Shown: positions 5,582 to 36,345 of the stretch, piece after piece
Layout: every line of letters starts with the position of its first letter
Numbering within the stretch: position 1 is the first letter of the stretch
Assembly: GCA_002364615.1 (NCBI GenBank)
Contig: DEYP01000019.1
Span: 186,001-250,000 of the forward strand
Direction of reading: 5' to 3'
Source: Arsukibacterium sp. UBA3155
Lineage (GTDB): Bacteria; Pseudomonadota; Gammaproteobacteria; Enterobacterales; Alteromonadaceae
Length of the DNA stretch: 64,000 bases
Notes under the pieces: generated by a model
What the model was told of the DNA's origin: nothing
Seen by the model: only the letters and a program-made list of their open reading frames with translations
Databases searched by the model: none
Program-made: the position numbers and the translations under genes

Positions 5582-5609
5582 GCGGCAACTTTGGTTGCCG
5601 CTTTTTTTT
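5582..5609 (+). terminator. Rho-independent terminator of ahpF
   Basis: GCGGCAAC-TTTG-GTTGCCGC gives an 8-bp stem and is followed by eight T residues. It sits just before the end of the convergent PDZ-protein gene. Confidence 0.9.
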
Positions 5610-6471
5610 ACTCGCACTGACGGTCTTCTACTTTCCACACCAGCGGCTCCCAATATTGTGCAGGGTCCGTACGTTCTTCAATATCTGTAATATAGCGACT
5701 GGCCAGATGATAGACCTTATTGGGTTCCAGATTTAGTTCCAGTGGTTGGGTAAAGTGTCTGCTACGAATATCGGCCGGGTTTCTTCTGAACCGACCTAAA
5801 GGTATGTGCTCCAGTAACTCTATTTTTTGCTTCCCTGCAGCGATTTTGATCACATCAGTATTGCGAAAAGGCTGATCCCGGAAGTCAGTTTCGCCAACCA
5901 TTCTGATGGTAGCCGGAAAAATTTCCATGCTGGGGGGCGGTGAAAAGAATACGGAAATAAAACTACAGCCCGTGGTCTGGTTAATATTGGTTGTTGTGTT
6001 TTGTGGTGCTGGGTTTATCTCTAAGCGCCAGCCTGGGATGGTACGCCGGGTCACCGTGCTGTGTAACTTAATTGCTTTGCCTGCGCGGTTTACCCAGACA
6101 CTAAAAGGTTTACCTTCTTCAAAATCGTTTAGCAAGGCCAGTACATCTTCAAGGCTGGTTGAATTAACGGCAGCATTATTAATCTGTAATAGTTTGTCGC
6201 CTACCACAACCCCTGCTTTGTCAGCATCAGAATCCGGGGTTACCGCCAGTACTATATGTTGCCGGTTCATCACCGCGCCAAAGTGATAATAGTTACGGGC
6301 GGGCTGTTCAATGATCAGTGGGCCATCTTCCGCTGATTTACCTGATGTTACTATTGCTGCTTGCACGGCATCAATAATATCCTGCGAAGGTGTGTGTTGC
6401 TGCGCAGCTACGCCGATTGTCCAAAGTGCTGCTACAGTGATGCCAAGCCGCGAAACTTTTGTAAGGTTCAT
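5608..6471 (-). CDS. Exported PDZ-domain protein
   Basis: A 287-residue protein with an N-terminal signal-like segment (residues 1-23, ending VAAQQ) and one PDZ domain at about 60-135 (LAVTPDSDADKAGVVVGDKL is typical). No protease triad is visible. The C-terminal half has no family I recognise. Its start overlaps the upstream gene by an ATGA (4 bp), which makes it the third gene of an ECF sigma operon. A role as periplasmic sensor or partner of the one-TM protein is an inference from that coupling. Function unknown. Confidence 0.75.
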   Translation of the reverse strand: MNLTKVSRLGITVAALWTIGVAAQQHTPSQDIIDAVQAAIVTSGKSAEDGPLIIEQPARNYYHFGAVMNRQHIVLAVTPDSDADKAGVVVGDKLLQINNAAVNSTSLEDVLALLNDFEEGKPFSVWVNRAGKAIKLHSTVTRRTIPGWRLEINPAPQNTTTNINQTTGCSFISVFFSPPPSMEIFPATIRMVGETDFRDQPFRNTDVIKIAAGKQKIELLEHIPLGRFRRNPADIRSRHFTQPLELNLEPNKVYHLASRYITDIEERTDPAQYWEPLVWKVEDRQCE

Positions 6472-6848
6472 AGAGTATAAGTCCGTGGTTGAGGTTCATT
6501 AAAGTGTTGACGCTGCACAATTAAACGTTCTACCTGCTCGTAATCGTTAAGCAGAATAGATTGCTGAATTGCCGCATCCAGCTGCTCTAACCGGAAGTTA
6601 CTGACAGGGCTTGTTTGTGGTTGGTCTATCGCAACTTGCGCGGGTTCGGGCTGGTTGCTATACAGCATGCCACCTATTACGCCTATCATCGCCAGACTAG
6701 CGGCGCTGCTTAGCCAGAACGCAGATTTCCCGCGTTTATTACTTAGACGTTGCTGCAGCTGCTGCCACATTAAGTCGTCAGCAGTTTCCTGATGAGCCGC
6801 TGTTAAGCGCTGACCCAGCAGCTCACTGAATTGCTGTTGCTTACTCAT
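6468..6848 (-). CDS. One-TM protein, candidate anti-sigma factor
   Basis: A 126-residue protein with a cytoplasmic-type N-terminus rich in Q and L (LLGQRLTAAHQETADD), one membrane segment at about residues 43-62 (FWLSSAASLAMIGVIGGML) and a periplasmic tail. This layout and its ATGA overlaps with the sigma gene upstream and the PDZ gene downstream fit an anti-sigma factor. The zinc-binding HxxxCxxC motif of ZAS anti-sigma factors is absent, so the assignment rests on position and topology. Confidence 0.55.
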   Translation of the reverse strand: MSKQQQFSELLGQRLTAAHQETADDLMWQQLQQRLSNKRGKSAFWLSSAASLAMIGVIGGMLYSNQPEPAQVAIDQPQTSPVSNFRLEQLDAAIQQSILLNDYEQVERLIVQRQHFNEPQPRTYTL

Positions 6849-7402
6849 GATTCGTCCTGCTTAAGTTGAGTTGCTAATTTCAGTAAGGCCCGCCGGTATT
6901 GCTGGCGGACATTTTGCTCAGATAGTTGCAGCAATTCGGCCAGTTGCTGGTGGCTGTAACCCTCTACGGCATACAACCACACCAATACCCGCTGCTGTTC
7001 AGGCAGTACCGCCATAATGCGTTCAACATCATCCAGCCGGGTTAGCGAGTCTATGGCGCTGTTCCAGCTTTGATCACTAATATTGTCGCTTCCGTCATCG
7101 CTCAGCAGCTGTTGCCGGTTGCGTCGACGCAACGTATCCAGCGCTAACCTGACGCTAAGTTGTTTTAGCCAGCCGCCTACCGCCAATGGCTGTTTAATAT
7201 CTGCCAGACAGTCGAATGCTTTGATAAAAATATCCTGAGTCAGGTCGCGACCATCTTCGGCAGAACCCAGCATGCCAATACATAGACGGAGCACCGGATC
7301 AGCAAAGTGACTATAAAACCGCTTTAAAGCGTCTGGCTGGCCGCGCTGGGCTGCTCTAATAATCTCAGGCGCTATTGGTCTACCAAATCCGTTTGCTGAC
7401 AC
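6845..7402 (-). CDS. ECF-type RNA polymerase sigma factor
   Basis: A 185-residue sigma-70-family protein. Region 2 is at about residues 25-90 (QDIFIKAFDCLADI, then GGWLKQLSVRLALDTLRRRNRQ). Region 4 is at about 130-180, with the helix-turn-helix GYSHQQLAELLQLSEQNVRQ. There is no extra C-terminal domain. The start is a GTG preceded by AAGGAT at a good distance. It is the first gene of a three-gene overlapping operon and probably directs its own promoter, as many ECF factors do; the signal is unknown. Confidence 0.88.
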   Translation of the reverse strand: MSANGFGRPIAPEIIRAAQRGQPDALKRFYSHFADPVLRLCIGMLGSAEDGRDLTQDIFIKAFDCLADIKQPLAVGGWLKQLSVRLALDTLRRRNRQQLLSDDGSDNISDQSWNSAIDSLTRLDDVERIMAVLPEQQRVLVWLYAVEGYSHQQLAELLQLSEQNVRQQYRRALLKLATQLKQDES

Positions 7403-7477: not shown

Positions 7478-8293
7478 TTAACCGGCTTTTTGCCGTAACG
7501 GATGATCGGCCGGTACGCCGAGTTGGTCCAGCATGTTGTGGTTAATTTTTTTGGCGTGCAGAGGCGGGATCACCAGGGTGGTGATTTGGTTTAGTGTGGC
7601 CTGAGGTAGTGAAGTTAAAGCTATGGTATCGGCCCGGTGTTGCCAAATAGGTAAGTCGGCGGCTTCATATAAAATAATCTGATGATCCGGCGGGTACCAT
7701 TGCTGCAGGTGCTGCACCAGAATTTGAATATAACGGCTGTCGCTCTCCAGTCTGGCTAAGCTGAAATCCCCTGCTATAGCCACCTGCCACAGCAGTAAAT
7801 ACCCACTGACATCAACGGTATGTTGATAAAACATAAACTGGCTGGCTTCAAATTGCTGACAGCCTTCTGCCATTGGGTCTATGCCCAGGTCGGCATATAG
7901 GCAGGCGTCGGCGCCAATGCCGGCTGCCATTTGCGCCTGGTAGCCCAGGGCTTTTAGCTGACGTATGGCTTCATGCGGTGGCCAGCTGGCGATGCCGGGG
8001 TGGCCGTAACAGGCCCAGACAACATTGTTGCCGGTAGTTACCGCTGCAATTACGGCATCCATCATGGCCTGATAGCTTTCAAGCCGTGACTGACCGGCCT
8101 GATAAAATGGTTGTAAATCAACTAAGTTGGGGTTTATTTGCTGTAAAAAACCGGCAAGATAATGACTATTGCTGTGAAAAAACACCACGTCGGCTACCGC
8201 CAGCTGCTCGCGGGCCAGAATGGTCAACTGGCTGCCGAGGGTAATGCCTAACCCCAGACACATCAAGCTGCCACGGGGTTGCTCAACTAACAT
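7478..8293 (-). CDS. Borosin-type peptide backbone alpha-N-methyltransferase (SonM-like)
   Basis: A 271-residue member of the tetrapyrrole-methylase fold, from the ATG at 8293; an ATG at 8263 is also possible. It begins with the SAM-site segment GSLMCLGLGITLGSQL, then has R70 and Y74 in QSRLESYQAMM, YGHPG at 96-100, GIGADACLYADLGIDP at 125-140, FEASQFMFY at 149-157 and QWYPPDHQIILYEA. From memory this order closely follows SonM of Shewanella oneidensis, which N-methylates backbone amides of a separate precursor (type IV borosin). Sirohaem or cobalamin methylases lack this pattern. The start overlaps the diguanylate cyclase stop by 11 bp, so it is translationally coupled. The precursor gene is first in the same operon. 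Confidence 0.88.
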   Translation of the reverse strand: MLVEQPRGSLMCLGLGITLGSQLTILAREQLAVADVVFFHSNSHYLAGFLQQINPNLVDLQPFYQAGQSRLESYQAMMDAVIAAVTTGNNVVWACYGHPGIASWPPHEAIRQLKALGYQAQMAAGIGADACLYADLGIDPMAEGCQQFEASQFMFYQHTVDVSGYLLLWQVAIAGDFSLARLESDSRYIQILVQHLQQWYPPDHQIILYEAADLPIWQHRADTIALTSLPQATLNQITTLVIPPLHAKKINHNMLDQLGVPADHPLRQKAG

Positions 8294-10022
8294 CGTTGCC
8301 CTGGTTGCCGCTGCTATCGGTCGGCTGATAAACCACAATCCGGTTGCGGCCACCGGTTTTGGCCTGATATAACGCATCGTCAGCTTGCTTTAATAAATTG
8401 TCAAAATCTGCGCTACTGCTGGTGGCCACCCCGAAACTGGCAGTGATTTGAATGATCCGGTCATCAACCTCAATATCAAGTTGCTCCAGGCTCTGCCGGC
8501 ATTGCTCGGCAATTTCTTTTGCGTCGGCGAGGGCACAACCCGGTAAAAACAAGGCAAACTCTTCACCGCCCACCCGCGCTAAAATATCCTGCTGCCGAAT
8601 CAATACCTGGCAACACTGGGCAATGGTACTTAATACTTTATCACCGGCGGCATGGCCGTATTGATCATTAATTTGTTTAAATAAATCGATATCAAACATG
8701 ATCAGGCTGTACTCGCCCTGCTGACGACGGTTGGCGAGATGTCTGCTAACCGTTTCGTTAAAATAGCGGCGGTTAAATAAGCGGGTTAAAAAATCGGTGG
8801 TGGCCAGCCGGTTCAGGGCCACTCTTTTGCTATTGAGAACATAAATTACCAGCAGTAACAATGCCAACAAAGCGACAGCAAACATCAGAGCTTTTAGTTT
8901 TTGTTCCTGTTGTAACTTACTTTCGAGTTGCAGCAACTCATTCGTACTCTCTAATAGCGCGAGTTTATTTTCGCTTTCCATAAAGTCAGCCTGTGCCAGA
9001 TGGTAGGCGACGCTGCGTTTTTTAAACTCATCAATATAACGAATCAGCGCTACAGAATGTTGGCTATATGCTTTAACAGCAGCTGCGGTATTTCCTGCTT
9101 TTTCATGTGTTTGTGCTAGTAGCAGCATCGCTTTATTGGCGGTTTTCGTATCATTTAACGCTATTGTTTGCTGATAAACCTTTTCCAGTAATGCCTCTGC
9201 TGCTGCATAGTTCTGCAGATGTAACTCAGCCGACCCCAGGAAAAATTCGGCCTGAATAACTGAATACAAATAGCCGGTTTTTTTAAGTTCAGGCATTACT
9301 GACAGCATGTCAGTTTTAACCTGAGCCGGCATTTTATCTAAATCAATTTCAGCGATGTACAGGCTAAGGGTGTGCAGTAATAATGGCTCGTTTGCTGTGA
9401 TGCAGGCTTGTTGCGCTGTTTTAAATGCTTCATTTGTGTACGTTTGCTTTAACTTTATTGTTGCATGCAATTGTAATGCATAGCCAACACAATAGCTGCG
9501 CGGAGATCTGGCAACATCGACGATATTAGACGCATATTCCAGGGCTTTGTCGTAAACATTGGCACTGATATGTAATTGGGTCGCAACAGTATACAAACTA
9601 ACCTGTAGAGGCTCGCTGTTCAGATAGTTGCCTGCTTTTAGCGCATCAAACAAGAACGAGTATGCCTTACTGAAATCCTTTCTGTGCTCATAAACTGTTG
9701 CCAGCAACAAGTTGGCTTTAAGGGTGATTTCCGGGTATTCACTATCTGCTATCTTAGCAGCCCAGCTAATCGCATTTTCCTGTTCGCCCTTAAATGCATA
9801 GATATAGGCTTTGAGAAAGGTAAATTGCTCTTTCTGATAAGGAGTCAGAGCCTGGTAATCCAACTCCAGCTGAGCAACGATGTCAGCGGTTTGGGTTGGT
9901 GACTGAGTGCGTAATGCTTCTGCCTTGTCCAGCTGTGGTTGAAAAGTGTCAGCTGCACTGAGAGCAGAAAACGCCGCTAACACCAATATCAGCGGTATAT
10001 ACACCCATCCTGTCCGTTGCAT
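8283..10022 (-). CDS. TPR-containing membrane diguanylate cyclase (GGDEF)
   Basis: A 579-residue protein with a signal or TM segment at 5-24, about eight TPR-like helical repeats at 30-340, a short coiled coil (LLESTNELLQLESKLQQEQK), a membrane helix at about 370-390 and a C-terminal GGDEF domain. The active site is GGEEF at 485-489. The inhibitory I-site RQQD lies five residues before it, so the enzyme is expected to make c-di-GMP with product inhibition. The TPR part should be periplasmic and could sense a ligand or peptide. It starts 6 bp after the borosin precursor and overlaps the methyltransferase, an unusual position for a signalling enzyme. Confidence 0.9.
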   Translation of the reverse strand: MQRTGWVYIPLILVLAAFSALSAADTFQPQLDKAEALRTQSPTQTADIVAQLELDYQALTPYQKEQFTFLKAYIYAFKGEQENAISWAAKIADSEYPEITLKANLLLATVYEHRKDFSKAYSFLFDALKAGNYLNSEPLQVSLYTVATQLHISANVYDKALEYASNIVDVARSPRSYCVGYALQLHATIKLKQTYTNEAFKTAQQACITANEPLLLHTLSLYIAEIDLDKMPAQVKTDMLSVMPELKKTGYLYSVIQAEFFLGSAELHLQNYAAAEALLEKVYQQTIALNDTKTANKAMLLLAQTHEKAGNTAAAVKAYSQHSVALIRYIDEFKKRSVAYHLAQADFMESENKLALLESTNELLQLESKLQQEQKLKALMFAVALLALLLLVIYVLNSKRVALNRLATTDFLTRLFNRRYFNETVSRHLANRRQQGEYSLIMFDIDLFKQINDQYGHAAGDKVLSTIAQCCQVLIRQQDILARVGGEEFALFLPGCALADAKEIAEQCRQSLEQLDIEVDDRIIQITASFGVATSSSADFDNLLKQADDALYQAKTGGRNRIVVYQPTDSSGNQGNDVS

Positions 10023-10028
10023 CGCGTA

Positions 10029-10235
10029 TCACTTTGCCGGGAAGATAAAAGTAACAGGCTGCACCGGATGTCCTGTTAACTGCTCAACTTTGGCTTTATC
10101 GCCCGCCACTACCGCGTCAATTTCATGGCTCTGAAGGCCATATTTTTGCATGGCGGTGGCAGGGTCTTGCTGATATTCCTGTTGCAGTTTTGGGTTGGTG
10201 GCTAAATCACTAATAAACTGGCTTAACGTCGACAT
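10029..10235 (-). CDS. Borosin-type RiPP precursor peptide (SonA-like)
   Basis: A 68-residue peptide with a good AGGATG ribosome binding site. Residues 1-55 look like the helical borosin binding domain: LSQFISDLATNPKL, then YQQDPATAMQKYGL and EIDAVVAGDKAKVEQLTG. The last 13 residues are a hydrophobic tail, HPVQPVTFIFPAK, that fits a core peptide; SonA of Shewanella has a similar leader followed by a short tail with beta-branched and aromatic residues that are N-methylated. The leader also resembles other short Nif11/LigA-like leaders, so the borosin call depends on the methyltransferase in the same operon. No protease or transporter gene is nearby. Confidence 0.85.
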   Translation of the reverse strand: MSTLSQFISDLATNPKLQQEYQQDPATAMQKYGLQSHEIDAVVAGDKAKVEQLTGHPVQPVTFIFPAK

Positions 10236-16201: not shown

Positions 16202-16307
16202 GCGTGTTGCACAATAACTATTGTGTGTAGTTGAATATGATGGTCGGCATGGAACGCTAGCCCCGCTTGTTGGCAGCTTTGTATGTGCTGGTCATAATGA
16301 GGACCTC

Positions 16308-17255
16308 ATGAAAAAAATAATAATACCTGTACTGCTGATTGCACTTACTGCATGCACATCTGCTACTCGCGAAACGGTCAATAAAGTCCCAGATACTAAA
16401 CCTGTCATCAGCAAAACTCTGGCTCAACCAGAGGCCATGTCGTTAAAGCGGGTGGTAGCCATTGCTCGTTTTTCGGATGAAACCAAGCGTGGAAACGCCT
16501 TTCTGGTTGACCAGAATGCAGATCGTTTAGGGAAGCAAGCGTCTGACATTCTTGCTGCGCGCTTAACTGAAACCAACAAATTTATTATGTTAGAGCGTGC
16601 TGACTTAGACAAGGTTATTGCCGAGCAAAATTTTGCGGGCAATGCGGTGCAGGCAGTAGGTTCAGATTACCTTATTGTTGGCTCAGTATCTGAGTTTGGC
16701 CGCTCCAGCACCAGTGAAGTTGGCGTATTTAGCCGCAACCGGATTCAGAGTGCAACGGCGACCGTCAATGTCAGGTTAGTTAATACTAAAACAGGCCAGG
16801 TGTTGTATTCCGAAGAAGCCACCGGCGAAGCCCGGGTAGAAGCGAACACTGTGGTCGGCATTGGAGAAAGAGCCGCCTATGACACCGCGATAAACGATAA
16901 AGCATTGTCTGCCGCAATTTCTAAGCTGGTAAGTAACATTGCAGAGAACTTGCTGGATGCCCCCTGGCAAGCTTATTTAATTAGTCAGCAAGGTTCTAAT
17001 TACCTGATGACCGGTGGTAAATCTCAGGGCATTAGTCTAAACGATACGTTTGAAGTACAAACGGCTGGAGAGCAAATTAAAAATCCGCAAACCGGTTTTC
17101 TTATTACTCTGCCAGGCAGTACCGTTGCTACGGTGAAAGTTATCGGTTTCGTTGGTGAGGGCGAGAATGAGCTGTCGATTTGCCAGCTGGTTACCGGCAA
17201 TATTGCTGAGCTTGAGTTACAGAAGCTGGTAGTTCGTGAAAAAGGAAAAGCGTAA
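16308..17255 (+). CDS. CsgG-like outer-membrane lipoprotein
   Basis: 315 residues from the ATG at 16308, which has a GAGG ribosome binding site and starts a lipoprotein signal with lipobox LTAC; the longer frame to 16221 lacks this logic. The body matches the CsgG/HfaB family: VVAIARFSDETKRG, ASDILAARLTETNKFIMLERADLDKVIAEQ and GSDYLIVGSVSEFG. CsgG proteins form outer-membrane pores, but no curli subunit genes are here. It is followed at 2 bp by three more small lipoprotein genes, a set known from Neisseria and other proteobacteria (CsgG, DUF4810, DUF799). Confidence 0.88.
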   Translation: MKKIIIPVLLIALTACTSATRETVNKVPDTKPVISKTLAQPEAMSLKRVVAIARFSDETKRGNAFLVDQNADRLGKQASDILAARLTETNKFIMLERADLDKVIAEQNFAGNAVQAVGSDYLIVGSVSEFGRSSTSEVGVFSRNRIQSATATVNVRLVNTKTGQVLYSEEATGEARVEANTVVGIGERAAYDTAINDKALSAAISKLVSNIAENLLDAPWQAYLISQQGSNYLMTGGKSQGISLNDTFEVQTAGEQIKNPQTGFLITLPGSTVATVKVIGFVGEGENELSICQLVTGNIAELELQKLVVREKGKA

Positions 17256-17257
17256 AA

Positions 17258-17581
17258 ATGAAAAATATCTTATTGATTACATTTGTATTTATGCTATCTG
17301 CTTGTAGTGCTGGCTACAGCTCGTCAACTCAGGTAGATGATAAAGCGTATTTGCAGCTGGCCGGTGACTTTTCTAACACTGTATTAATTATTAACGACCA
17401 GCAACCCATCATGCTTGATAGTGGTGAGGTGAATACCTTTAAACTTAATGGTGAAAAGGTAGCGAAGTTTGATCTGCCTACCGGCTCCCATACTGTAGAA
17501 GTACTGCGCAATAACACCACTGTGGTCAAGCGTAAAATCTATGTTTCTAATGGCAATACTTTTGAAGTGAGAATTCCATGA
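17258..17581 (+). CDS. Small lipoprotein of the CsgG-like operon
   Basis: 107 residues with a signal and lipobox (MLSACS). The mature part is predicted mostly beta, ending KRKIYVSNGNTFEVRIP, like a small PEGA-type or carboxypeptidase-regulatory fold. It overlaps the next gene by 4 bp (ATGA). Function unknown; by context it belongs to the CsgG-like outer-membrane assembly. Confidence 0.75.
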   Translation: MKNILLITFVFMLSACSAGYSSSTQVDDKAYLQLAGDFSNTVLIINDQQPIMLDSGEVNTFKLNGEKVAKFDLPTGSHTVEVLRNNTTVVKRKIYVSNGNTFEVRIP

Positions 17582-17934
17582 ACCTGATAAAAAAAGCAGC
17601 CATTATCGTCGTGGCATTAGGTCTGACGGCATGCCAGGCCACAAACTCAATATATTATTGGGGTGATTATTCTGATTCAGCCTATAAATTAAAAAATACG
17701 CCAACAGATGAAACACTCGCTAAGCATAAAGCGAGTTTGTTGAATATTGTCACTAACGCGCAACAGAAAAATAAAAAGATCCCGCCGGGTATTTATGCTG
17801 AACTTGCCATGCTGGAAGCGGAAGCGCGCAATGTTGACCTGGCACTGCAGTACTTTGGCAAAGAAAAAGAGTTGTTTCCTGAATCCACTAAAATAGTTGA
17901 TATGATGATCAGCTCGATGAATAAGGATGTGTAA
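17578..17934 (+). CDS. DUF4810 family lipoprotein
   Basis: 118 residues, lipobox LTACQ, then IYYWGDYSDSAYKLKN, the typical DUF4810 start, and a TPR-like helical pair (PGIYAELAMLEAEARNVDLA). Overlaps the preceding gene by 4 bp and is followed 1 bp later by the DUF799 gene. Expected to be membrane-anchored and periplasmic; role unknown. Confidence 0.82.
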   Translation: MNLIKKAAIIVVALGLTACQATNSIYYWGDYSDSAYKLKNTPTDETLAKHKASLLNIVTNAQQKNKKIPPGIYAELAMLEAEARNVDLALQYFGKEKELFPESTKIVDMMISSMNKDV

Positions 17935-17935
17935 C

Positions 17936-18613
17936 ATGAATTTAGGACGTGTTGTACTTCTGAGCGCAGTAACCCTGATTTTGGCAGGTTGCGCATCACC
18001 TATGATCACAAAGCAGGAAGCTTTTCCGAAGGTGTATCAGGAAAACCCATTATCAATACTGGTGGTTCCGGCTATTAATAATTCTACTGCCGCTGATGCC
18101 CCGGATTTATATTCTACTACCATAGCGCAACCCATTGCAGAAGCAGGCTATTATGTAATGCCGCTGCCACTCACTAATTTTATATTAAATAGTGAAGGTA
18201 TTACCGACGGCGCTCAATTGCAGGACGTTAACGCCATAAAGTTTAAACAATTATTCGATGCCGATGCCGTTTTATTTGTTACCATTAATCAGTGGGACAC
18301 TAACTACTATGTTACCGGTGGTAATGTTACGGTTGGAGCAGAGTTCAATTTAGTGTCAACAACTACTAATGAAGTGTTGTGGAATTATAACAACATTATC
18401 GTTCACAACACGTCAGGCAATAGCGGAAATCTTATTGCTGACATCATCGCTACGGCGATCACGACGGCGTTAACCGACTACGTGCCGGTAGCACGTATCG
18501 TTAATGCGACAGTGGTGAATACCCTGCCAGCCGGAAGATACAATGCCAAACATGGCAAGGATGGCCTGGAAAAAGCAGTGAATAAAAATTTGAGTACGCA
18601 AACCAAAGGTTAA
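17936..18613 (+). CDS. DUF799 (GNA1162-like) lipoprotein
   Basis: 225 residues from the ATG at 17936, which has AAGGATG seven bases upstream; an in-frame ATG at 17927 overlaps the previous gene. The lipobox is LAGCAS. ILVVPAINNSTAADAPDLYSTT and DADAVLFVTINQWDTNY match the GNA1162 family, whose meningococcal member has a TolB-N-like fold. It is last of the four-gene lipoprotein operon and is followed by a terminator. Confidence 0.85.
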   Translation: MNLGRVVLLSAVTLILAGCASPMITKQEAFPKVYQENPLSILVVPAINNSTAADAPDLYSTTIAQPIAEAGYYVMPLPLTNFILNSEGITDGAQLQDVNAIKFKQLFDADAVLFVTINQWDTNYYVTGGNVTVGAEFNLVSTTTNEVLWNYNNIIVHNTSGNSGNLIADIIATAITTALTDYVPVARIVNATVVNTLPAGRYNAKHGKDGLEKAVNKNLSTQTKG

Positions 18614-34416: not shown

Positions 34417-36345
34417 TTAAAGATACTGTTTTAAAAACGCCAGATAGGCTTGCTGCGCTTTAATCCGGTTACTCTTTTTCAAAAAGCCGTGGCCTTCGTC
34501 ATCAAATAACACATATTCTACCGGTACGCCGTTGGCGCGAATGGCCTCGACCATCTCATCGCTTTCTACCTGCAGTACCCGCGGGTCGTTGGCGCCTTGT
34601 ACTACCAGCACCGGCTTTTGCACTTTGTCACCATGAAATACCGGGGATATCCGGCGCAGCCGCTCGCCATCTACTGTCGGATCGCCAAGCTCGGCATAAA
34701 GGGATTCACGAAATGACTCCCACCACGGTGGAATACTCTCCAGCGTGCGTACCCAGTTGGTTACCCCGAAGATATTAATGCCAGCCTCAAACTCATCGGT
34801 AAAGGCCATTGCCGCCATAGTCAGATAGCCGCCGTAGCTGCCACCAATTACGCCAATACGCTCACCCGCCACCCAATCGAGCTGCTGCAGGTATTTTTTG
34901 CCGTACACAATGTCCTGTAAGTCATCTTCACCATGGCGCAGGTCATCCAGATGATAAAAGGTTTTGCCATAGCCAGATGAGCCTCGGTTATTGACCGACA
35001 ACACCGCATAACCATGGTTAACCAGATGTTGGATCATCGGATTGTAACCGGTGCGGGACTGGCCACCCGGGCCCCCGTGGATCCAGATTAAGGCCGGTAC
35101 TTTGGCGTTGGGGTTAGCCTGGTGGGGTTTGTAAAGTAGCGCCGGAATAGTTAAATCGTCAAAGCTGTTAAAGCGTACCACTTCACTTTGCACCAGATGT
35201 TGCTCATTAATACTGCTGTCCAGTGCCTGAGTTAAGCGCTTTGCCTGAGGACTACCCAGTTGCCAGACATATAAATTAGACGGGCTGTTATCGGCATTTA
35301 AATAAAAGCTCATATATTTACTGTCATCAGAAAACGACACCCCACGTAAGTCACCAGCCGGTAGCGTGGGTAATTTAAGCGCTTTACCATTTTTAAGGTT
35401 GGTAATATTAATTTCGGTAGAGGCATCGGCATTAACGCCCTGTACCCGGTACTGTTCGTCTTCACTGAAATAAATAAAACTGATATCCCAGTCAGCTTTG
35501 CTGTATGCAGAGGTTGCAACGCTTTGCAGGTTGTAGCTGTAGGCCGCTACAAACTCACTTTTACCGTCAGCCCCAAACAGTAATGCTTTACTGTCCGGGG
35601 TGAAGCCATAAATCTGATGCGAAATATTGCCCTGATGTTCAGTAATTAATACCGGCCTGGGAGTGGCGCTACCAAGGTCAACCAGAAACAGGTTGTTATC
35701 GGCATTATTGCGCTCTTTGCTCAGCGCCAGATAGCGACCATCTTTGCTGACATTACTGATGCTATAACCATCGTCATTCTGATAGATCAGCTTGCGGCCG
35801 TAGTCCTGGCTGTTGTAATGATAAAGATCGAAAAAACGCGGGTCACGTTCATTGGTGGCAATGTAAAAGCTGCCGTCGTTGTGCCAGCCAGCAAAGTAGG
35901 CTTTGAGTTTATCGCCGGGGGTCAGATCCCGCACTGTGCCATCTACCTCGCGCAGATAAACATGGTTTAACTCATTACCACCCTGATCAGAGGTGTACAG
36001 CAGCCGGTCATCGTTTGGAAACCAGCTAACCGGAAAGGCCGGATCGGTGGTCGATTTCGTCAATGGCTGCCAGTTCTTGCCATCCATACTGACCCGGTAC
36101 AGGTTAAAAACGCCTGTTTCATCCGAGGCCACCAGCATCGCGCTGTTATCGTGATTAATATCATTACCAAAATACGTTTTGGTCGCAAAAAACTGTTCTA
36201 CACTATACTGTGGAACGTTAAAAGACGTGTTTTGAGAAGCGCTGTTCTGTGTGCTGGCTGACGCAGTGTCAGTGGTATTATTACAGCCGGCTAACAGGGT
36301 ACTGGCCAGCAGGGCAAATAAGGTAATACTGGGGCGAGATAACAT
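34417..36345 (-). CDS. S9 family peptidase (prolyl oligopeptidase type), lipoprotein
   Basis: 642 residues. Signal with lipobox LLAGCN, a serine-rich linker, a beta-propeller domain (WD40/PD40-like repeats at about 60-390) and an alpha/beta hydrolase domain. Catalytic residues: Ser in [10 protein letters not shown], Asp in GANDPRV and His in DDEGHGF. It should cleave short peptides in the periplasm, anchored to a membrane. Related to acyl-aminoacyl peptidases. Monocistronic. Confidence 0.92.

Follow-up and report, generated by a model that had tools for sequence, protein, structure and literature searches.

The 64,000-nucleotide stretch of the Arsukibacterium sp. UBA3155 genome analyzed here (contig DEYP01000019.1, positions 186,001 to 250,000; hereafter the window) carries a split borosin locus, in which a precursor peptide and its predicted backbone methyltransferase are encoded by separate, close genes on the same strand, a third gene lying between the two. 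The order on the minus strand, head to tail, is a 68-amino-acid precursor, a 579-amino-acid protein combining tetratricopeptide repeats (TPR) with a GGDEF domain, and the methyltransferase (table 1). The nearest named orthologue is found in Arsukibacterium indicum (87% identity). Direct reading places an AGGA motif six bases ahead of the precursor ATG. According to the open reading frame (ORF) list and direct reading, six bases separate the precursor stop codon from the ATG of the TPR-GGDEF gene, and the end of the latter overlaps the start of the methyltransferase gene by 11 bases. This tight packing on one strand supports a single operon, as the original prediction had proposed for peptide and enzyme; promoter-like sites, however, are no more numerous in the window than in shuffled controls (5 vs. 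7.4). Terminator-like sites (13 in the window vs. 6.0 in shuffles) were not used as evidence, and no family reached its gathering score in an Rfam scan of the window.

The enzyme belongs to the SonM/OphMA family. Its best solved relatives in a PDB search are SonM chains (E = 1.3e-71), followed by the fungal dbOphM, OphA, and MroMA. The full ORF spans 7478–8377 (−); we prefer the ATG at 8293, which gives 271 amino acids, because the 8377 start falls deep within the upstream gene and because the SonM match starts just after 8293. The SonM motifs named in the original prediction were read correctly. Seven SonM residues tied to core binding, cofactor binding, or locks (PMC8429565), Y58, R67, Y71, Y93, E146, W166, and Q167, are conserved as Y64, R70, Y74, Y96, E149, W169, and Q170, and the compared residues that depart from SonM include F99 and E173, replaced by A102 and D176. 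A quick tree was built from the enzymes of 74 of the 120 loci described below (dereplicated at 72%), SonM, and the CysG and RsmI domains of the same genome. The window enzyme falls within the borosin group with SonM, apart from CysG and RsmI, which are the only two tetrapyrrole-type rows, have very long branches, and serve as the root. A tetrapyrrole methylase identity is thus rejected by the PDB matches and by the tree, the former weighing more than the latter for the identity of the enzyme.

At E ≤ 1, the precursor has seven PDB matches, every one a SonA chain or variant, although the label of some reads just LigA-domain protein; the best (E = 5e-8) aligns residues 1–56 with residues 1–56 of SonA, as expected of the borosin-binding leader originally predicted. 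The Pfam LigA score is 22.9 bits, under the cut-off of 25.3, and the NCBIfam matches (IniB N-terminus, NHLP-type) were all below cut-off and set aside. In nine of nine window-class loci, two of which are identical, the 68 residues align without gaps and end in FP(A/V)K, and for that reason we do not regard the precursor as a chance ORF. The hydrophobic tail, VTFIFPAK, differs from that of SonA, again in agreement with the original prediction. The methylation sites of SonA are L63 and I65 (PMC8429565, PMC11285071), and by analogy F63 and F65 of the window precursor would occupy these positions. From these sequence comparisons, the window enzyme almost certainly methylates the window precursor. 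No signal peptide was seen on the precursor by eye, no predictor having been run.

The role of the product had been left open in the original prediction. The literature searched indeed states none for bacterial split borosins, whose enzymes are well studied; what had been passed over is the gene between precursor and enzyme, a conserved TPR-GGDEF gene that gives the question a testable answer. Its product matches Pfam GGDEF at 8.3e-47; TPR_12 matches at 3.3e-6 (27.6 bits, under the cut-off of 30.1) and TPR_14 at 24 bits, above the cut-off of 23.5. From its N-terminus, the protein comprises a hydrophobic segment, some 300 residues of helices resembling TPRs, a transmembrane stretch contained in one long helix, and the GGDEF domain; its AlphaFold2 model has a mean predicted local distance difference test score of 93.9. 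The GGEEF motif of the window protein conforms to GG(D/E)EF, the catalytic motif of active diguanylate cyclases, which is present in 87 of the 91 GGDEF receptors compared; the RxxD motif is present in 77 of the 91. By a crude hydropathy rule, 109 of 117 companion proteins encoded in the borosin loci compared below have an N-terminal hydrophobic segment and 115 a second one. C178 and C207 are invariant across 65 aligned GGDEF receptors; the secondary structure puts them on consecutive helices, where a disulfide might join the two, as would suit a periplasmic location. A TPR domain that may bind a ligand is predicted from the helices of the models, the Pfam TPR scores being partly under cut-off. 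The sensor was modelled alone because a fold search with the full-length protein returned GGDEF proteins among the best 50 matches listed. By template-modelling score (TM), the structures closest to the sensor model include RapF with its inhibitory peptide (TM 0.61, rank 43), Rap3T with its pheromone (0.54 to 0.59), and subunits of the anaphase-promoting complex (~0.6).

Table 1. Predicted features of the split borosin locus; coordinates refer to the window, and those of the precursor include the stop codon.
Feature	Position	Strand	Basis
Split-borosin precursor, 68 amino acids	10029..10235	−	ORF, SonA homology E 5e-8
Borosin-binding-domain leader, residues 1–56	10068..10235	−	Alignment to SonA 1–56
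Predicted core, residues 61–68, VTFIFPAK	10032..10055	−	Tail comparison in 9 loci
Receptor-like TPR diguanylate cyclase, 579 amino acids	8283..10022	−	Pfam + AlphaFold2
Predicted periplasmic TPR sensor, ~residues 25–330	9033..9950	−	Structure models, invariant columns
Transmembrane segment, ~residues 378–397	8832..8891	−	Read from sequence; within long helix 312–408
GGDEF domain, residues 407–561, GGEEF + upstream RxxD inhibitory-site motif	8340..8804	−	Pfam, motif reading
Backbone alpha-N-methyltransferase, SonM homologue, 271 amino acids	7478..8293	−	PDB matches, residues, tree, Pfam TP_methylase 2.8e-14

We compared 120 loci: that of the window, 10 named loci (L035–L044), 29 of the same genus (L045–L073), and 80 order-level regions (L074–L153) selected from a longer list of matches, some loci sharing a genome. 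Within the genus, the enzyme was found in 29 of 31 genomes, in 8 as the window form (at least 76% identity) and in 28 as a second form (46–50%); the window genome carries both. It is present in 95 of 394 genomes of the order sample (E ≤ 1e-20) and in 15 of 398 of the phylum sample (E ≤ 1e-15). Type IV borosin clusters are widespread in bacteria (PMC11285071), and the earlier statement that split bacterial forms are few does not hold. Judged by sequence, active-site residues, and tree, the locus is a split borosin of this known type IV, with a different tail as originally predicted, and on the biosynthetic side it adds a new member to that type.

Precursors were detected near the enzyme in 116 of the 120 loci (129 precursors) with hidden Markov models built from the same loci in which they were counted, 8 of these loci being reached only at E 0.002 to 0.03. 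The search found nothing in L071, L118, L125, and L153; the first two still have a GGDEF gene. We defined the gene following a precursor as the largest same-strand ORF of at least 250 amino acids starting between 150 bases before and 700 bases after the precursor end. By this rule, 92 precursors are followed by a GGDEF gene, 15 by a histidine kinase gene, 4 by a hybrid kinase gene, 7 by another gene, and 11 by none. The spacing is tight: for 89 of the 92 GGDEF receptors, the start ranges from 105 bases of overlap with the precursor to 36 bases past it. Counted per locus, 108 of the 120 have a GGDEF or kinase gene no farther than 3.5 kb from the enzyme, 7 have another companion, and 5 (L107, L114, L125, L149, and L153) have none by the rule. 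Conversely, 91 of the 108 GGDEF ORFs of these loci, among ~1,100 genes by a crude count, directly follow a precursor. Pfam detected a GGDEF domain in all 65 GGDEF companions searched of 91. In the 29 non-GGDEF companions (26 by the rule plus three TPR genes of L114), it detected TPR_12 in 25, HisKA in 18, a response regulator domain in 4, and GGDEF in 2. The companion in L043 is GGDEF by Pfam, so that one of the 7 other genes is a GGDEF gene missed by the rule. Inside the class and outside the order, the phylum sample contains three loci, all with precursor and GGDEF gene.

The 11 precursors lacking a companion are distributed as follows. In L072 and L103, the receptor ORF overlaps slightly beyond the limit of the rule, and L149 is at a contig end. 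In L077, L078, L079, and L145, the receptor is paired with another precursor. The one in L056 lies by an enzyme fragment, that of L114 belongs to a locus with three TPR genes after the enzyme, and L107 accounts for two. In each of L077–L079, a single receptor accompanies a tandem arrangement of two enzymes and two precursors, and the repeated motif LLLLEPTNGQDHKLLLLTP occurs in the first of these precursors. At L114:4281-8860, the genes for precursor and enzyme precede those for three TPR-type proteins in tandem, each of 361–365 amino acids and without an output domain. L056:8620-9546, with a 139-amino-acid enzyme fragment and a second precursor without its own receptor, is apparently decaying. 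In another class, L164:2445-5969 (−) encodes a 1174-amino-acid fusion with a borosin-type methyltransferase domain, and these profiles found neither precursor nor GGDEF gene nearby.

The output domain can change. The receptors of L104 and L116 end in a histidine kinase, yet by sequence their sensors match a GGDEF receptor, that of L087 (E 2e-73 and 4e-76). Both loci also have enzymes that branch with the L087 enzyme in the quick tree (support 99), and their cores, SKIVCMIMPAED and SKIVCMIVPAEE, nearly equal those of the GGDEF loci L117 (SKIVCMLVPAKD) and L108. From these sequences, the output in L104 and L116 changes while enzyme, core, and sensor persist. The sensor parts of the remaining kinase companions reach GGDEF receptors only at E 1e-6 to 1e-12, a level that general TPR likeness could explain. 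In six loci, two precursor–receptor pairs accompany one enzyme, with GGDEF receptors in L054, L055, L057, L059, and L066 and kinases in L141.

We also asked with Mantel tests which component the cores follow; dereplication at 70% left 71 of the 91 pairs for this purpose, and core limits were set by simple rules. With output and enzyme removed, core distance correlates with sensor distance at r 0.33 (n = 71), vs. 0.20 for the output and 0.10 for the enzyme; the values for sensor, output, and enzyme are 0.25, 0.18, and 0.10 in class A and 0.28, 0.10, and 0.16 in class B. Leader distance tracks the enzyme (0.19 overall, 0.27 in class A, 0.31 in class B), as expected because the leader docks on the enzyme.

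In the window genome, which has 56 GGDEF domains, the only further match of the window sensor used as a single-sequence query is, at E 1.7e-5, the receptor of the second borosin locus; with a profile built from 32 sensors, two weak ones (E 6e-11 and 2e-7) come in addition. This second locus, G000:C29:130490-133917 (L045), encodes an enzyme, a GNAT-like protein, a 95-amino-acid precursor with core NKIVCMILPAEEP and an acidic tail, and then a TPR-GGDEF protein; the GNAT-like protein was called by eye, an NCBIfam search being without match. Across 22 genomes, the sensor profile gave 36 strong matches (E ≤ 1e-50, a cut-off picked after the list was known), 32 of them within 5 kb of a borosin enzyme gene. 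Receptors free of enzyme and precursor are those of L156, L157, L158, and L159. The L157 receptor is flanked by the neighbor types of the second borosin locus of the genus, and looks like a case in which enzyme and precursor were lost and the receptor kept. L160, with two moderate sensor matches (E 6e-26 and 3e-16), was set aside: profiles for precursor, enzyme, GGDEF, and kinase were all negative.

The closest described system is SonM-SonA of Shewanella oneidensis (PMC8429565), which shares with the window the separate enzyme and precursor, a homologous leader and enzyme, the active-site residues, and a hydrophobic tail. The window differs from it in the tail VTFIFPAK and in the order precursor–receptor–enzyme instead of enzyme–precursor–receptor. 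In the Shewanella loci L042 and L044, and in L085, whose tail is nearly that of SonA, a GGDEF gene follows the precursor as in the window. The terms GGDEF and operon are absent from the main text of PMC8429565. The legend of Figure 1 in PMC11395268, on borosin architectures, already names a GGDEF-containing domain (two uses) and gives it no function, and the word "cyclase" is absent from the text of that article. The association of borosins with GGDEF is, therefore, not wholly new. For the TPR sensor, the forms with kinase output, and a signaling role of borosins, no statement was found in the open-licence literature searched.

Two kinds of characterized proteins resemble the receptor. Peptides of the RNPP receptors are encoded by a gene neighboring that of the receptor and, to our knowledge, are not backbone-methylated. 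In RapF-PhrF, a TPR superhelix with a fold similar to that of the sensor model reads a short peptide (PMC3601957). RNPP receptors are cytoplasmic and from Gram-positive bacteria (PMC3601965), whereas the window sensor is predicted to be periplasmic, and at the sequence level nothing relates them beyond general TPR likeness: in profile searches, Rap matches are no better than those of unrelated TPR proteins. TPRs joined to a GGDEF domain, as in the window, are known from periplasmic-TPR cyclases of Vibrio parahaemolyticus and from RcbB of Vibrio vulnificus, where the TPR represses the cyclase and a partner relieves the repression (PMC12282931). RcbB acts at the cell pole together with a protein partner, and the available text describes no peptide or methyltransferase gene with it (PMC12282931).

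The recurrence of the sensor gene beside borosin precursor genes, a linkage that spans many genera, suggests that borosin peptides are chemical signals. Given the conserved arrangement, precursor, enzyme, and receptor very probably constitute one functional unit. In the mechanism that we propose, the leader would dock on the methyltransferase dimer, and the enzyme would N-methylate amides in the backbone of the tail, the region around F63–F65 of VTFIFPAK being the likeliest by analogy with SonMA. A protease would then cut off the tail, which would cross the inner membrane by virtue of its N-methylation or through a transporter encoded outside the locus. The tail would bind the periplasmic TPR superhelix of the 579-amino-acid protein, and binding would be relayed through the single long membrane-crossing helix to alter diguanylate cyclase activity, the peptide thus setting the level of cyclic di-GMP; in relatives, the same kind of sensor would drive a histidine kinase instead. 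That the modified tail itself is the ligand through which the receptor changes cyclic di-GMP is the reading toward which these comparisons incline us, by a small measure. A broader proposal covers the split borosins of Gammaproteobacteria as a whole. They would be a cell–cell or self-signaling system in which a dedicated TPR receptor reads, on the periplasmic side, a ribosomal peptide made more robust by backbone N-methylation. Diguanylate cyclase, histidine kinase, and hybrid kinase would be interchangeable outputs of that receptor, and peptide and receptor would duplicate and diverge as pairs, like the pherotypes of quorum sensing. We give this generalization an even chance.

Control might run in the other direction, the TPR domain sensing another envelope cue and its output, cyclase or kinase, governing how the peptide is expressed or released, while the peptide itself would act elsewhere, as a toxin, a metallophore, or in competition. 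Regulators often adjoin biosynthetic genes, the ligand role of the peptide is itself inferred, and receptors without a precursor (4 of the 36 strong matches) would fit such an arrangement. It accords poorly with the close spacing of precursor and receptor (89 of 92), their doubling beside one enzyme in six loci, and the link between core and sensor distances beyond output and enzyme; no recurring regulator binding cyclic di-GMP, transporter, or resistance gene was seen by eye, with no profile search run. We consider it rather unlikely. More improbable still is a partnership of the receptor with the whole precursor, modified or not, in which the leader would cap the TPR groove or tether the enzyme and no peptide would be released. 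The derepression of RcbB by RcbA offers a precedent (PMC12282931), and no protease was seen in the locus; a whole cytosolic precursor would nevertheless need export to meet a sensor predicted to be periplasmic, and no signal peptide was apparent by eye (no predictor run). Finally, the GGDEF gene might be a passenger in an ordinary borosin natural-product cluster, such genes being common (56 domains in this genome). This is very hard to reconcile with the 108 of 120 loci that have a GGDEF or kinase gene no more than 3.5 kb away, with the precursor and GGDEF gene present in three of three class loci outside the order, and with a single-sequence sensor search of the genome that finds only two GGDEF proteins, both borosin-linked.

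Several observations weigh against the tail peptide as ligand, or lessen the force of the evidence for it. Complexes in which the eukaryotic TPR protein LGN was solved together with its partners are the best-scoring fold matches of the sensor model, TPR folds being generic; the best profile matches of the sensor are engineered TPR proteins; many weaker, mostly partial matches of the sensor profile are to other TPR proteins; and TPR_12 reaches E ≤ 0.01 in 36 of the 65 GGDEF companions searched. In cyclases, the TPR is known to serve protein–protein contact, as between RcbA and RcbB (PMC12282931). Four of the 36 strong sensor matches lie in GGDEF genes without enzyme or precursor nearby, and a receptor can therefore exist alone; the 22 genomes searched were chosen by hand (19 with the enzyme, 3 without), which favors linkage. 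L107, with an enzyme, two precursors, and no receptor nearby, is a real exception. No recurring protease or exporter gene was seen in the neighborhoods viewed, no systematic search having been run. Leader distance follows more than the enzyme: it correlates with sensor distance overall (0.36) and in class B (0.31), and with output distance in class A (0.50). The significance of partial Mantel tests is inflated by shared ancestry and carries little weight alone. Likewise, the loci are related, and their counts are of non-independent events.

N-methylation is reported to improve membrane permeability (PMC8429565) and proteolytic stability (PMC7878506), and if the tail peptide does act as a periplasmic signal, these gains would explain the choice of the modification. 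Should the tail be the TPR ligand, the role of borosins would be signaling, and a cyclic di-GMP or two-component output would gain a defined peptide input, most loci supplying a matched ligand–receptor pair. If the broader proposal for the split borosins of Gammaproteobacteria held, they would form a Gram-negative peptide signaling system, and bacterial borosins would thereby have their natural function. We know of no described counterpart to Gram-negative peptide signaling of this kind.

Other genes of the window were considered in relation to the locus. Just downstream of the enzyme gene, 5608–7402 (−) encodes an extracytoplasmic function (ECF) sigma factor, a 126-amino-acid membrane protein judged by eye to be a possible anti-sigma factor, and a PDZ protein. 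This trio was rejected as part of the operon: in a comparison that left out L036 and L037, it follows the enzyme in L035 and not in L038, L039, L040, L041, or L052. An S9-family (prolyl oligopeptidase-like) peptidase is encoded at 34417–36345 (−), ~24 kb off, with no link to the locus shown; in a fungal borosin pathway, a prolyl oligopeptidase performs cyclization (PMC12235650). In a row at 16221–18613 (+) are genes for a CsgG-like protein, a small ORF, a DUF4810 protein, and a GNA1162-like lipoprotein.

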